Source of the DNA: Thiobacillus denitrificans
GTDB lineage: Bacteria; Pseudomonadota; Gammaproteobacteria; Burkholderiales; Thiobacillaceae
Assembly (NCBI GenBank): GCA_020723405.1
Contig: DYIY01000022.1
Location: 1 to 53,176 of the forward strand
Length of the DNA stretch: 53,176 nucleotides
Direction of reading: 5' to 3'
The translations under genes were made by a program, and so were the position numbers. The notes under the pieces were generated by a model, which saw nothing but the letters and a program-made list of their open reading frames with translations, ran no database searches and was not told the origin of the DNA. Shown here one piece after another: positions 5,867-11,429 of this stretch. Numbering within the stretch: position 1 is the stretch's first letter; each line of letters begins with the position of its first letter.

Positions 5867-8332
5867 TCAATTCTTCAGGAGGGTGATCATCACCGCTTCG
5901 CCGTCGCCGGAGAGGGTGATGGCCGGGCTGAGGGTCACCGTGTAGGAGGTGGCGTTCTCGGTGACGGAGGGGGTGGAGACCACGTGGCCCGCGGGGGAGA
6001 AGCGGTGCATGGTGGCCGTCACGGAGCCGGTCCAGCCGTCCTTGTTGAAAGTCATGCTTTGCAGGCTGGCGGACACGACCTGACCGCTGGCGGCAGTGAC
6101 CGTGACCACGCGCCGGGCGCCGTCGTCCACCGAGCTGAACTGGGTGGTTTCCAGATCGCTGGCGGAACCGGTGACGGTGGCGTAGTTGGCTTCCACTTCC
6201 AGGGCGGCGTTGCCGAAGAAGCTGTGGAAGGTCTTCATGGCCTCGTCGGGGGCAGTGCCCGCCACGCCGTTGCCCGTATCCCAACCGTAGATGCTGACCC
6301 GGGTTTCATCCGGGCCCATGCCCCGGTGATAGTGCCAGGCCAGGTGGTTGCCCAGTTCGGAAGTCGCCACGGCCGCACCCTGGCCCGCTTCGGCGGCCCG
6401 GATGCCGACGGTTTCGGTAACCCACAGGCCCCGCAGGGTGCCCACGCCACGCCACTTGTCCCAGATCAGGTCCAGGTTGCTGGAAGAGCCGGGGTAATGC
6501 ACGGTGAGCAGGTGCACCAGGTCGGTGACTTTCTTGCCGGCCAGGCTGGGGGCGTAGGTGCCATCCACCTGGTAGTCCAACAGGGCGTCGATGAAGGCGC
6601 GGGCGCCGGCATTGCCGCCGTTGCCGATGGAGCCCAGGGCCACGGTGACGGCTTGCTCGTCGCCGTAGAAATTCAGGCTGGACTGGCGGATCGCTTCAAC
6701 GGTGGGGGCTAGGTAGTACTCGACGTAGTAGGGAATCATCTCCTGGTCGTATTCCTGGCTGGAACCCGGGACGGTGATGCCACGGCTGGCGGCCCAGGCG
6801 CGCAGGGTGTCGCTGAAGTTCTGCTTGGTGATCTCGTTGCCGAGTTGGTAGATCAGCTTGTCGGCATCCGGGTCCAGGGGAGACAGGGCATCCACCTGGG
6901 CCATCACCACGCTTTGCCAGGTGGCCAGGCCACCGGCCCGCAACAGGTCGAACAGGTCGCCCATGGTGGTCATTTCCTGGTCGGAGTCGCCGCCGAAGCC
7001 GGCGATGGTGACGATCTGGTCGCGGGACTGGATGCGGTTGCCGACTTCCGTGGCCAGGGAGTTGACCTTGCCGGTGTTGTCCAGCAGGTTGATGCCGGTC
7101 AGGTAACCGAACCAGGAACGTTCCATGGTGGCCCAGGAGGCACCGGTCCACTGGGAACTCCAATATTCGTTCCAGGGACGCGGGAAGGCGCTGTCGTCCA
7201 GGGTCACGGTGATGTTGGAGGTCTCGCTGTCGGTGGTCTTGCCATCGCTGACCTTGAAGGTCACGTTGTAGCTGCCGTGCTTGCCGGTACCGGGACGGGC
7301 GCGGAAGGTGCGGCCGTCGAAGCTCATCCAGCTTTGCAGGCCGGTGGCGGTGACGGTCAGGGCATCGCCATCCTCGTCGCTGCCGCTGATGGGCAGGCTC
7401 AGGGCACGGCCTTCACCCACGCGCCAGGCACCCACGGGATTCAGGACGGGAGCCCGGTTGGTGTCGTTCACCACCAGGGTGACGGTGGACTTGGTCTGCT
7501 TGGCGCCATCGCTGGCGGTGAAGGTCACGGAATAGCTGCCGGCCTTGCTGTGATCCGGGGTGGCGGAGAACTTGCTGCCATCGAAGCTCATCCACGCAGC
7601 CTGCATGCCGCTGGCGGTGATGGTCACCGGGCTGCCATCCGGGTCGGTGGCAGTGACGGTGCTGTTCAGGGTGCTGCCTTCCGCCACGGTGAAACTGCCG
7701 AAGGCGCCGAAGACGGGCGCCTGGTTCACATCGGTGACGGTGATGGTCTGCACGGCAGAAGTGCTGAGCTTGCCGTCGCTGGCGGTGATGGTGACGGTAT
7801 GGGTGCCGGCATCGCTGTAACCCGGGGTGGCGGTGAAGGTGGTGCCGACGAGCTTCATCCAGCTCTTCAGGGGAGAAGCCGTCAGGGTGACCACGTCCTT
7901 GTCCGCATCGGTGGCGGTGATGCCCCAGGACAGGGAACCCCCTTCGGCCACGGTACGGCTGGTCAGGGCATTGATGGTGGGCGCCTGGTTGACGTTGGTC
8001 ACCGTGATGGGCACGGCCAGGGTAGTCGCCTTGCCGGAGGTGTCCTTGGCGGTGAAGGAGACGGAATAACTGCCGGAATTGCTCAGGCTGGGCGTGGCCG
8101 TGAGGACGTTGTTCTTGAACGTCATCCAGGTCTTCAGGCCCTTGGCGGTGATGGTGACGGCCGTGCCTTCCGGATCGGTGGCGGCCACGGTGAAGGTCAG
8201 GGTCTGTCCCTCGGCCACCGTCTTGGCGGGAATGGCAGTGAAAGTGGGGGCGAGATTGGCGGCGGAGGCGTGGCCGGCAAAGGCCAGGGCCATCAGGGCG
8301 GTCAATCGGGCATATTTTGTACGGTTGGTCAT
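5867..8332 (-). CDS. Secreted protein with four Ig-like repeats and a clan GH-A-like glycosidase domain
   Basis: 821 aa. A signal peptide (residues 1 to about 25, ending ASAAN) is followed by four putative Ig/cadherin-like repeats of about 90 residues (about 28-117, 118-205, 206-293, 294-380). Each opens with AP and carries an AEG or GEG motif and a WM-x-F motif. The remaining 440 residues look like a TIM-barrel glycosidase: YQLGNE puts a Glu at 500 after Asn (acid/base position of clan GH-A) and WVTE puts a Glu at 640 (nucleophile position), with VHYPG between. A short beta domain ends the protein. I chose the ATG at 8332 because AAGGAG stands six bases upstream. It is preceded by a c-di-GMP riboswitch. 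The glycosidase family and substrate are not identifiable by eye. Confidence 0.8.
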   Translation of the reverse strand: MTNRTKYARLTALMALAFAGHASAANLAPTFTAIPAKTVAEGQTLTFTVAATDPEGTAVTITAKGLKTWMTFKNNVLTATPSLSNSGSYSVSFTAKDTSGKATTLAVPITVTNVNQAPTINALTSRTVAEGGSLSWGITATDADKDVVTLTASPLKSWMKLVGTTFTATPGYSDAGTHTVTITASDGKLSTSAVQTITVTDVNQAPVFGAFGSFTVAEGSTLNSTVTATDPDGSPVTITASGMQAAWMSFDGSKFSATPDHSKAGSYSVTFTASDGAKQTKSTVTLVVNDTNRAPVLNPVGAWRVGEGRALSLPISGSDEDGDALTVTATGLQSWMSFDGRTFRARPGTGKHGSYNVTFKVSDGKTTDSETSNITVTLDDSAFPRPWNEYWSSQWTGASWATMERSWFGYLTGINLLDNTGKVNSLATEVGNRIQSRDQIVTIAGFGGDSDQEMTTMGDLFDLLRAGGLATWQSVVMAQVDALSPLDPDADKLIYQLGNEITKQNFSDTLRAWAASRGITVPGSSQEYDQEMIPYYVEYYLAPTVEAIRQSSLNFYGDEQAVTVALGSIGNGGNAGARAFIDALLDYQVDGTYAPSLAGKKVTDLVHLLTVHYPGSSSNLDLIWDKWRGVGTLRGLWVTETVGIRAAEAGQGAAVATSELGNHLAWHYHRGMGPDETRVSIYGWDTGNGVAGTAPDEAMKTFHSFFGNAALEVEANYATVTGSASDLETTQFSSVDDGARRVVTVTAASGQVVSASLQSMTFNKDGWTGSVTATMHRFSPAGHVVSTPSVTENATSYTVTLSPAITLSGDGEAVMITLLKN

Positions 8333-8340
8333 CTCCATCT

Positions 8341-8368
8341 CCTTGCGCGTTGCACAACCGACGCAAGG
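8341..8368 (-). promoter_or_regulatory. Hairpin that can mask the ribosome binding site of the secreted glycosidase-like gene
   Basis: On the minus strand CCTTGCG (8362-8368) is the exact complement of CGCAAGG (8341-8347), with a 14-base loop. The 3' arm supplies most of the AAGGAG Shine-Dalgarno of the start at 8332. Together with the aptamer upstream this suggests control of translation initiation. Confidence 0.55.
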
Positions 8369-8446
8369 GGAGGGAAGCAAACCGGTGTGAGGAATAGCAG
8401 GCAGGACCGCCTCGAACCAGACACGCACTCGCAGTACGCGTCTTCG

Positions 8447-8535
8447 CGATTGGCAATCCCGCTGCCGTAGAACTGGGTTCCTTAGGCCGGTGATTTTGCG
8501 TCCCCGTCTTTCGACGGGTTTGCCCTTTGCAATCG
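8447..8535 (-). promoter_or_regulatory. c-di-GMP-I (GEMM) riboswitch aptamer
   Basis: The minus strand matches the GEMM-I consensus in order. A closing stem CGATTG (8530-8535) pairs with CAATCG (8447-8452). Inside are AAAGGGCAAACC, a CCGTC-GAAA-GACGG hairpin with GNRA tetraloop, GGGACGCAAA, CCGGCCTAA and GGCAGCGGGATTGCC. The AGGG at the ligand contact keeps the G typical of c-di-GMP aptamers, where the cGAMP-selective variant has A. A 10-bp hairpin follows immediately downstream without a T-run, and the RBS-masking hairpin lies about 80 bases further on. The controlled gene is the secreted glycosidase-like protein. Confidence 0.9.
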
Positions 8536-8569
8536 GTGTCTGGGTGCCTTGGCACACACAGACGGTTTC

Positions 8570-8598
8570 AAGTTACGTCAAAGTTTGGACTGTGTCAA
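8570..8598 (-). promoter_or_regulatory. Sigma-70 promoter of the riboswitch-controlled gene
   Basis: On the minus strand a perfect TTGACA (8593-8598) is separated by exactly 17 bases from TAACTT (8570-8575). Transcription would begin near 8563, about 28 bases before the aptamer, giving a leader of about 230 bases before the start codon at 8332. Confidence 0.72.
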
Positions 8599-8609
8599 CA
8601 GGACATTGA

Positions 8610-8644
8610 GGTATGAATTGCATTTTTACTGGTCAATTCATACC
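8610..8644. repeat. Perfect inverted repeat between tRNA-Ser and the riboswitch promoter
   Basis: Arms GGTATGAATTG (8610-8620) and CAATTCATACC (8634-8644) are exact complements over 11 bases with a 13-base spacer. It lies nine bases beyond the 3' end of tRNA-Ser and just upstream of the TTGACA promoter. It could be a transcript-end hairpin for the tRNA (no T-run is present) or an operator. Confidence 0.6.
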
Positions 8645-8652
8645 AGGATGGC

Positions 8653-8740
8653 TGGCGGAAGCGGTGAGATTCGAACTCACGGATGGTTGCCCATCGCCGG
8701 TTTTCAAGACCGGTGCCTTAAACCCCTCGGCCACGCTTCC
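8653..8740 (-). tRNA. tRNA-Ser(TGA)
   Basis: 88 bases including an encoded CCA. The acceptor stem is GGAAGCG/CGCTTCC with G discriminator. The anticodon stem CCGGT/ACCGG closes the loop CTTGAAA, so the anticodon is TGA. A long variable arm (GCGATGGGCAACCATCCGT) and the T-arm GAGTTCGAATCTC are present, as expected for class II serine tRNA. Confidence 0.97.
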
Positions 8741-9296: not shown

Positions 9297-11429
9297 ATGG
9301 AAAGCAAGGGGAAAGACCCGGGGTGCCTGCGGGACTCCCAGGTGGCGGACGTGGTTTACCAGATCATCCGGGATGGCGTGGCCCTGGCCGATGCCAACCA
9401 CCGGATCGTGGAAGTGACCCAGGCCTTCCGCGACATCACCGGCTACGACGACGCGGAACTGGTGGGACGATCCCCCCTGATGCTGGGCTCCCCCCACAAC
9501 GACCCGGGCCAGTTCCAGAGCCTGGAAGAGTCCCTGCACCTGACCGGCTGCTGGCAGGGGGAAGTGCTGAACCGGCGCAAGAACGGCGAGGAATACGCCG
9601 CCCTGTTGCGCATCCAGGCCCGCTACGGACCAGAGCATGAACTGCTCGGCTATGTGGCCGTGCTGACCGACATCCACGTACTCAAGCACGTACAGGAACA
9701 ACTGGCCTACCTGGACAGCTATGACGGCCTCACCGGCCTGCCCAACCGGCGCATGCTGGGCGACGGCCTGCACCAGGCGGTGGAACGGGCCCGGCGGGAC
9801 AATCGCCTGCTGGGGGTGGTGTATCTGGATCTGGATGGCTTCAAGGCCATCAACGACCACTATGGCCACGCCACCGGGGACACCCTGCTGGTGATGATCG
9901 CCCAAAGCCTGCGGGAACTGGTGGACGGCGACGGTCTGGTGGCCCGCATGGGGGGGGACGAATTCGCCCTGGTGCTGGAGGGCCTGAACAACATGGATGA
10001 ACTGGAGTCCATGGCCCGACGCATCCTGGTCATGGCCGGATCTTCCTTCGACATCGACGGACACAAGCATCATCTCTCGGCCAGCCTGGGGGTCACGATC
10101 TTCCCCATGGACGGCGCCGATCCGGAAACCCTGCTGCGCCACGCCGACCAGGCCATGTACCAGGCCAAGCAGGCGGGCCGCAACCGCTTCCACCTGTTCG
10201 ACGCCCGCCAGGATCAACTGGCCCTGAGCCGCCGGCAGATGCGGGAAAGAATGCTGGATGGCCTGATCAACGGCGAGTTCGAGCTGTTCTACCAGCCCAA
10301 GGTCAACCTGCGCAGCGGCGTGGTGATCGGCGCCGAGGGCCTCCTGCGCTGGCGGCATCCGGAACGCGGCCTGTTGCTGCCCGGGGAGTTCCTTCCCCCG
10401 GTGGAACATGACGACCTGATCATCGACATCGGGGAATGGGTCATCCGGACCGCCCTGGCCCAGATCCGCACCTGGCGGACCCTGGGCCTGGAGTTGTCGA
10501 TCAGCGTGAACATCGCCGCCCGGCAATTGCAGCGGCCGGACTTCATCGACTGCATGGAGCGTTGCCTGGCCGACTTCCCCGACACCCCGGATGGCCGCCT
10601 GGAACTGGAAATCCTCGAATCCGCCGCCCTGGAGAACACCGCCCACGTGCGCCAGGTCATCAGCACCTGCCAGCGCCTGGGGGTGGGCTTCGCCCTGGAC
10701 GACTTCGGCACCGGCTACGCCTCCCTGTCCTACCTGCGGGACATTCCCGCCGACGTGCTGAAGATCGACCAGTGCTTCGTCCGGGACGTGCTGGACGACA
10801 GCGACGACCTGACCCTCATCGACGGCATCATCAGCCTGGCCAACGCCTTCCGCCGCATCGTCGTGGCGGAGGGGGTGGAGACCCCGGAACAAGGTGTGCT
10901 GCTCATGCGCCTGGGCTGCGACATCGCCCAGGGCTACGGCATCGCCCGCCCCATGCCGGCCTCGGCCATGCCCGACTGGGTGGCCGGCTACAAGCCGGAT
11001 CCCCAATGGAGCCTGTGGGCCGATACGCCCTGGGAGATGGCCGACTTCCCCCTGCTGGTGGCCCAGTACGACCACATCAAGTGGGTAAAGCAGATCGCCC
11101 TGTACGTGGAGGGCGGCAACCTGCAAATGTCCGACCACGAAATCGTCGATCACCACCAATGCCGTTTCGGCCACTGGTATTACAGCCATGGCAACCTGCG
11201 CTACGGCCATCTGGTGGCTTTCCGGCAACTGGAAGACATCCACGCCCGGGTCCACCGGGTGGGTTCGGAGATCGTGGGCCTGCGTGCCGTGAACCGCCAG
11301 GACGATGCCCGCCACGCCCTGGCCACCCTGCTGGGCCTCAAGGACGAGGTTCTGCTGCGCCTGGCCAACCTGCAGAAGGCGGTGGTGGCCAGCGCCGCCC
11401 CGCCCCTGCTGGGCGGCACGCCCCGCTGA
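9297..11429 (+). CDS. PAS-GGDEF-EAL-CZB c-di-GMP turnover protein
   Basis: 710 aa, no membrane segments, so a cytoplasmic sensor. Order: PAS (about 15-130, with GYDDAELVGRSP), GGDEF (about 138-300), EAL (about 315-565), then a chemoreceptor zinc-binding (CZB) domain (about 585-690). The cyclase motif is intact (ARMGGDEF, 217-223), but the RxxD product-inhibition site is lost. The phosphodiesterase motif reads EGL rather than EAL (347-349), while DDFGTG, LKID and AEGVE are kept. CZB zinc ligands are likely His593, Cys622 in HHQCRFGHWY, and His649/653. Zinc, or oxidants acting on it, could tune c-di-GMP. A c-di-GMP riboswitch lies about 0.8 kb away. GGGAG gives a good ribosome site. Confidence 0.92.
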   Translation: MESKGKDPGCLRDSQVADVVYQIIRDGVALADANHRIVEVTQAFRDITGYDDAELVGRSPLMLGSPHNDPGQFQSLEESLHLTGCWQGEVLNRRKNGEEYAALLRIQARYGPEHELLGYVAVLTDIHVLKHVQEQLAYLDSYDGLTGLPNRRMLGDGLHQAVERARRDNRLLGVVYLDLDGFKAINDHYGHATGDTLLVMIAQSLRELVDGDGLVARMGGDEFALVLEGLNNMDELESMARRILVMAGSSFDIDGHKHHLSASLGVTIFPMDGADPETLLRHADQAMYQAKQAGRNRFHLFDARQDQLALSRRQMRERMLDGLINGEFELFYQPKVNLRSGVVIGAEGLLRWRHPERGLLLPGEFLPPVEHDDLIIDIGEWVIRTALAQIRTWRTLGLELSISVNIAARQLQRPDFIDCMERCLADFPDTPDGRLELEILESAALENTAHVRQVISTCQRLGVGFALDDFGTGYASLSYLRDIPADVLKIDQCFVRDVLDDSDDLTLIDGIISLANAFRRIVVAEGVETPEQGVLLMRLGCDIAQGYGIARPMPASAMPDWVAGYKPDPQWSLWADTPWEMADFPLLVAQYDHIKWVKQIALYVEGGNLQMSDHEIVDHHQCRFGHWYYSHGNLRYGHLVAFRQLEDIHARVHRVGSEIVGLRAVNRQDDARHALATLLGLKDEVLLRLANLQKAVVASAAPPLLGGTPR

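Follow-up and report, generated by a model that had tools for sequence, protein, structure and literature searches.

The locus

The window, that is, the whole stretch of 53,176 nucleotides of Thiobacillus denitrificans DNA analysed here, carries on its minus strand a c-di-GMP-I riboswitch aptamer which, judged by an inferred transcript start, belongs to the 5′ leader preceding a gene for a protein of 821 amino acids (Table 1). The end of this gene stands four bases from the end of an opposite-strand MacB/FtsX-type frame, and it therefore appears to be monocistronic. Upstream of the aptamer, at a distance of about 120 nt, follows a tRNA-Ser gene (8653-8740), and beyond it a divergently oriented gene encoding a PAS-GGDEF-EAL-CZB protein, which accounts for one of the 58 GGDEF matches in the window genome.

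An earlier note had placed a TTGACA-17-TAACTT promoter ahead of the aptamer. The site is present, with TTGACA at 8598-8593 and TAACTT at 8575-8570 (minus strand) separated by a spacer of 17 nt, but its -10 box is weak (3/6 consensus letters) and it is absent from the listing of a consensus promoter scan. The promoter is nevertheless supported because the orthologous leader of a second species (genome G021) keeps the hexamers as TTGACA-17-TAGCTT despite a diverged spacer. A perfect 11-bp inverted repeat with a 13-nt spacer and no T run after it occupies positions 8610-8644, in the interval from the tRNA-Ser gene to the -35 box. It is possibly a regulator site or a processing signal; inspection by eye revealed no counterpart in the G021 stretch.

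The frame of the gene (5867-8557) remains open upstream through the whole aptamer as far as a GTG at 8557, and likewise in G021, probably by chance. This GTG was rejected as the true start, since the ATG at 8332 has both AAGGAG before it and a signal-peptide-like stretch after it, and since the linker preceding the hairpin around the ribosome-binding site is poorly kept.

Table 1. Features of the locus, in window coordinates
Feature	Position	Strand	Basis
Riboswitch-controlled gene, 821 aa, four Ig-like domains and a C-terminal GH-A-like domain	5867..8332	-	Translation, Pfam, relatives
C-terminal domain (P0001 residues 382-821), putative glycosidase	5870..7189	-	Low-confidence models, Foldseek
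Glu640 codon (WVTE), putative nucleophile	6413..6415	-	P0004 E259; just past predicted strand 254-258, taken as barrel strand 7
Glu500 codon (QLGNE), putative acid/base	6833..6835	-	P0004 E119; three residues past predicted strand 112-116, taken as barrel strand 4
Expression-platform hairpin CCTTGCG/CGCAAGG burying the Shine-Dalgarno sequence AAGGAG (8344-8339)	8334..8375	-	Folding, G021 conservation
c-di-GMP-I (GEMM-I) riboswitch aptamer with outer P1 helix	8447..8535	-	RF01051 over 8449-8534
Probable sigma-70-type promoter TTGACA-17-TAACTT	8570..8598	-	Read in sequence; G021 counterpart
Divergent neighbour PAS-GGDEF-EAL-CZB, predicted c-di-GMP turnover enzyme	9297..11429	+	Pfam; beyond the tRNA; context

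The aptamer

When the whole window was scanned with the covariance model RF01051 (c-di-GMP-I), a match of 86.7 bits (E 7.6e-16) was found at 8534-8449 on the minus strand, against a gathering score of 35 bits. The assignment to GEMM-I made in the earlier note, which had named the RF01051 threshold as its test, is thereby confirmed. The alignment is full length (model positions 1-87) with no non-standard pairs marked, and a perfect outer P1 helix, in which CGATTG at 8535-8530 pairs with CAATCG at 8452-8447, extends the element beyond the match to precisely the ends that the note had given. The aligned sequence contains a GAAA tetraloop hairpin (GUCGAAAGAC) and a receptor-type CUAA segment (CCUAAG...CUACGG, with the 3′ half CUACGG standing against cuAuGa in the model). 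At the three positions that contact the ligand, which we take to be G20, A47, and C92 in Vc2 numbering, it reads G, A, and C. In folding energy, the 87-nt stretch has only a moderate advantage over its dinucleotide shuffles (z -2.13, 6/200 at least as stable), so that the strong evidence for the aptamer is the covariance score. The aptamer is an ordinary member of its known riboswitch class.

The expression platform

The aptamer is separated from the start codon by 116 nt in the window (ATG 8332), 121 nt in G021, and 74 nt in the ortholog from another genus (genome G1210). The AAGGAG that precedes the ATG is enclosed in a hairpin of -19.2 kcal/mol (z -2.89, 0/200 shuffles as stable), and the G021 leader forms a CCTTGCG/CGCAAGG hairpin as well (-19.6 kcal/mol, z -2.48, 3/200 shuffles). 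In the G1210 leader (L122), a different hairpin, GUACUC/GAGUAC, buries both the Shine-Dalgarno sequence and the start region (z -3.25, 1/200), which brings the count to 3/3 ortholog leaders. Comparison of window and G021 yields identical columns at 18/29 for the promoter, 16/41 between promoter and aptamer, 82/86 for the aptamer, 30/82 for the linker, and 33/37 for the hairpin. Because three leaders bury the Shine-Dalgarno sequence, one of them by a different sequence, the aptamer probably controls ribosome access, i.e., translation initiation. A transcription terminator was rejected as the platform: a terminator scan found none in the leader, its sole terminator-like site, at 8885-8869, being upstream of the tRNA gene.

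At equilibrium, most of the Shine-Dalgarno sequence is paired both in the free fold and when the aptamer is forced, and no switch is visible (the L122 aptamer could be forced only in part). The free fold of the leader differs from the aptamer fold in the window and in G021, and imposing the latter costs 12.9 and 3.5 kcal/mol, respectively, in a calculation that includes neither ligand nor tertiary contacts. One competing pairing, between GACGCAA of the aptamer core and the anti-Shine-Dalgarno segment UUGCGUC, would free the ribosome-binding site without ligand and thus turn expression off with it. The energy of this pairing exceeds that of the free ensemble by 8.6 kcal/mol in the window and by 10.3 kcal/mol in G021; relative to the aptamer-forced ensemble, it is 4.3 kcal/mol lower in the window and 6.8 kcal/mol higher in G021. 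No match of this type was seen in the G1210 leader, and other leaders show comparably long complementary runs at unrelated places. Being energetically unfavourable and absent from L122, the pairing was dismissed as the switch and kept as a weak pointer. As for the direction of control, the balance tips slightly towards repression at high c-di-GMP. According to the available portion of PMC6366702, class I c-di-GMP switches act both ways and need case-by-case testing.

The Ig-repeat protein and its C-terminal domain

The large downstream protein with Ig-like repeats that the earlier note had described is indeed encoded here: bacterial Ig/cadherin-like domains cover four stretches at about residues 27-378 above Pfam cut-offs, while the NCBIfam matches to the 821-residue protein are all below cut-offs, the best of them over the Ig half. 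Its proposed secretion fares less evenly. The N-terminus, which opens at ATG 8332, looks signal-peptide-like by eye, but the search confirmed no type II secretin (best 185.5 bits against a cut-off of 351.35).

The C-terminal domain gave nothing above cut-off in Pfam or NCBIfam, and its PDB-sequence matches include no glycosidases; in these three comparisons its sequence matches no known GH family. AlphaFold2 models were calculated for this domain and for its stand-alone paralog in G021 from three-sequence alignments. Mean pLDDT values are 60.8 and 63.0, respectively, with the N-terminal part poorly modelled in both; helices and strands alternate in both models and are followed by a beta-sandwich. 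In Foldseek searches of the PDB, ranks 1-25 for the window domain are all glycosidases (GH66, GH44, and GH35/beta-galactosidases). For the G021 paralog, glycosidases fill 49 of the best 50 rows, the remaining one being a phage tail, and comprise GH51, GH5, GH30, GH44, dextranases, heparanase, fucosidases, and others. TM-scores of these matches are at most 0.46 at 6-14% identity, and the comparison with a (beta/alpha)8 barrel draws on two low-confidence models whose N-terminal part is not resolved.

In clan GH-A, the acid/base and nucleophile glutamates are located at the ends of strands 4 and 7, the former preceded by an Asn. Two motifs of the window domain, GNE (Glu500) and W.TE (Glu640), are invariant in 5/5 sequences with 28-78% identity to it. 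Their glutamates adjoin the ends of the second and fifth resolved strands, which would be strands 4 and 7 if two further strands, not resolved in the models, precede them at the N-terminus. The fold matches of the models, together with the conserved Glu positions, suggest a putative GH-A-type glycosidase, and the reading as a glycosidase gains strength from the two stand-alone paralogs located where exopolysaccharide clusters end. The term GH-A-like used in the earlier note is thus backed by the fold comparison, within the limits of low-confidence models, and by the two glutamates, though not by any sequence family.

Relatives and the exopolysaccharide link

A search with the whole protein in 61 genomes (the own genome and 60 relatives) yielded matches in 11, nine of which extend only over the Ig-like half; full-length matches among these 61 are the window gene and one gene in G021, with 79% identity. 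A further full-length relative occurs in G1210 (46% identity over 812 columns). A profile of the C-terminal domain found it in 3/117 family genomes, namely, the window genome (two copies), G021 (two copies), and G1210 (one copy). The domain is rare, since samples of the class (1/369 genomes, searched with a single protein), the order (1/399), and the phylum (1/398; both searched with the profile) each returned the window genome alone. A gammaproteobacterial match (L007, 48% over query residues 651-680) is antisense to a frame and was rejected as chance. A search for viral relatives of the domain left none (28 pattern matches, 0 confirmed).

RF01051 aptamers precede 3/3 Ig-fused genes, with 86.7 bits in the window, 84.4 bits in G021, and 69.2 bits in G1210. 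The pairing of riboswitch and glycosidase-like gene put forward in the earlier note thus recurs in two genera. None was found near the two stand-alone domain copies within the 9-10 kb stretches scanned. Both of these copies, one in the window genome and one in G021, are situated at the end of exopolysaccharide clusters. In the window genome, the stand-alone copy P0005 (L072) follows Poly_export/SLBB, Wzz, Polysacc_synt, and Wzy_C genes (Pfam), with a one-base overlap between the Wzy stop codon and its ATG; a Bac_transf priming enzyme is encoded about 23 kb upstream, with two sulfotransferase genes in between. The riboswitch-controlled copy and this cluster reside on different contigs. In G021, the stand-alone copy belongs to a cluster that looks similar by eye and is arranged tail to tail with the riboswitch-controlled gene. 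G1210 has the Ig-fused copy and no stand-alone copy in the profile search, which weakens the case for a strict pairing of fused and stand-alone forms.

The sulfotransferase genes of the exopolysaccharide region in the window genome are consecutive (L074:10013-11775 and L075:3644-6329, Pfam), and three similar sulfotransferase-like frames were seen by eye in G021. Such genes suggest that the polysaccharide may be sulfated.

Other c-di-GMP-I aptamers in related genomes

At least one RF01051 aptamer is present in 89/100 family genomes searched, a frequency that points to riboswitches as a major outlet for c-di-GMP signalling in the family. The genes following 51 aptamers were classed by similarity to reference proteins, mostly named after Pfam, using start sites chosen by script, some of which may be wrong. 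This set comprises 46 of the 48 leaders tallied in the genus of the window (the other two having no listed places) and five hand-picked from other genera, G1210 being excluded. The most frequent neighbours encode DUF1631 proteins (18), type IV minor pilins PilV/PilX (13), and very large adhesin-like proteins (5). The rest consists of S53-type peptidases with Ig domains (3, the S53 naming being derived from a PDB match to tripeptidyl-peptidase 1, as Pfam gave Ig domains only), Ig-GH proteins (2), an S8 protease (1), a phytase-like protein (1), other singletons (5), and no gene (3). By these assignments, the cohort would largely serve surface attachment and comprise exported hydrolases, which suits a role in the matrix.

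Three features of this collection deserve mention in their own right. The DUF1631 genes, its commonest members (L008, L009, and 16 others), are followed in L008 by an EAL/HDOD-like frame recognized by eye; a search of the open-access literature found no paper that treats DUF1631 together with c-di-GMP. Six of the 51 aptamers (L011:5066-5141, L103, L104, L105, L111, and L112) have GCC (or GCT) ACACC and CGGAAA instead of GGCAAAC and CGCAAA. The pair concerned, presumably the equivalent of Vc2 G21-C46, has become C-G with both sides changed; in five of the six, the next gene encodes a very large adhesin-like protein, and L011 is devoid of much of P3. Finally, in L088, L095, L098, L099, and L100, two same-strand aptamers stand about 1.6-1.8 kb apart, one before a PilV-type and the other before a PilX-type minor pilin gene, an arrangement that looks like one signal read twice in an apparent single operon.

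Interpretation and alternative explanations

The explanation that we favour, with a probability of roughly 0.7, is that the leader contains a c-di-GMP-I riboswitch, most likely acting on translation initiation, and that its target is an exported protein combining Ig repeats with a glycosidase domain of GH-A type. Binding of c-di-GMP would fold the aptamer and thereby alter access to the ribosome-binding site held in a stable hairpin before the start codon. The single-gene transcript would then give rise to the exported protein, which would probably bind and cut a polysaccharide of the cell's own matrix. Own-matrix polysaccharide is the presumed target because a Wzx/Wzy exopolysaccharide cluster of the same genome encodes at its end the domain that the catalytic-type domain duplicates. 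The locus might serve biofilm matrix remodelling via c-di-GMP, and the adhesin, minor pilin, and protease neighbours of the aptamers in the genus would fit such a role.

Each part of this scheme has its competitors. The aptamer could act on transcription, by a Rho-dependent mechanism or by pausing, rather than on ribosome access; Shine-Dalgarno accessibility does not change in equilibrium folding, and the poorly conserved linker (30/82 columns) separates the aptamer from the hairpin. We nevertheless consider this unlikely, as the leader has no terminator-like site, the Shine-Dalgarno hairpin is the element kept besides the aptamer and the promoter hexamers, and in the other genus (G1210) a different hairpin takes over the same task. 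An explanation that accepts the riboswitch and questions its target regards the protein as structural and adhesin-like, with a C-terminal domain that binds polysaccharide without cutting it. Ig-like repeats make up more than 40% of the protein, genes for very large adhesin-like proteins follow other aptamers in the genus, and the domain models are of low confidence. Two glutamates in glycosidase-like motifs by strand ends, invariant in 5/5 sequences down to 28% identity, argue against a mere binding module, and this proposal, too, seems rather improbable.

Rivals that concern the ligand or the present function of the aptamer are less probable still. One Rfam family takes in both c-di-GMP and cGAMP RNAs, and the aptamer might accordingly sense 3′,3′-cGAMP, as do the GEMM-Ib RNAs of Geobacter. 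This is very unlikely, given a G at the position equivalent to Vc2 G20: the cGAMP-bound form is G20A in the available part of PMC6274999, and G rather than A would speak for c-di-GMP over cGAMP if, as is assumed here, a single letter sets selectivity. It is even harder to believe that the aptamer is a product of chance or a fossil without present function. In the accessible portion of PMC6366702, the 16 c-di-GMP riboswitches of C. difficile 630 include five described as non-functional; against such a fate here stand the 82/86 columns kept between window and G021, while the linker retains only 30/82, and the retention of the aptamer at the same gene in another genus (G1210).

Starting from the favoured explanation, a glycosidase-domain protein under c-di-GMP control, a broader scenario can be sketched, to which we would give somewhat less than even odds. 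The domain may found an undescribed GH-A glycosidase family for a sulfated exopolysaccharide, one copy of which would be made with the synthesis machinery as a permanent trimmer of the polymer, with c-di-GMP gating matrix cleavage by the Ig-fused duplicate directly via RNA. According to the portion available, PMC6366702 describes c-di-GMP riboswitches mainly before motility, chemotaxis, and adherence genes, and a search of the open-access literature by title or abstract start found no paper on c-di-GMP-I aptamers in Betaproteobacteria. What is new within that literature is the controlled gene, which represents a putative GH-A family whose Ig-fused form has retained the aptamer across two genera. 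If true, the arrangement would constitute a direct RNA link from c-di-GMP to a matrix-cutting enzyme and would offer a simple test of how second-messenger levels couple matrix synthesis to matrix release. The unclassified glycosidase-like family is itself worth a structure and an assay.

Comparison with known systems

PslG-type glycosidases are encoded in exopolysaccharide operons, exported, and made beside the polysaccharide machinery. The same may hold for the paralogs P0003 and P0005. Unlike PslG-type enzymes, however, the window domain reaches no Pfam or NCBIfam cut-off, and the copy under riboswitch control is fused to four Ig-like domains and, in the window genome, located on a different contig from the cluster. 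With barrel-type glycosidases (GH51, GH44, GH30, GH5, and others), which supply its best PDB matches, the modelled domain would share a C-terminal beta-sandwich and two glutamates by strand ends, whereas the resemblance is confined to structural matches of 6-14% identity with TM-scores of at most 0.46. Class I riboswitches of Clostridioides difficile likewise control surface or exported functions, as stated in the available part of PMC6366702. That paper presents the functional ones as OFF switches that terminate transcription, whereas no terminator was seen in the window leader. Vc1 of the Gram-negative Vibrio cholerae, located before gbpA, is another c-di-GMP-I aptamer followed by a gene whose product is exported and carbohydrate-associated (PMC4744006, accessible portion) and, to judge from the available text of PMC6366702, resembles the window leader in using no transcription-terminator switch. 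In the part of PMC4744006 at hand, Vc1 raises expression, and GbpA is an attachment factor for GlcNAc-containing surfaces; the target in the window, by contrast, combines Ig-like repeats with a putative GH-A domain that has paralogs in exopolysaccharide clusters.
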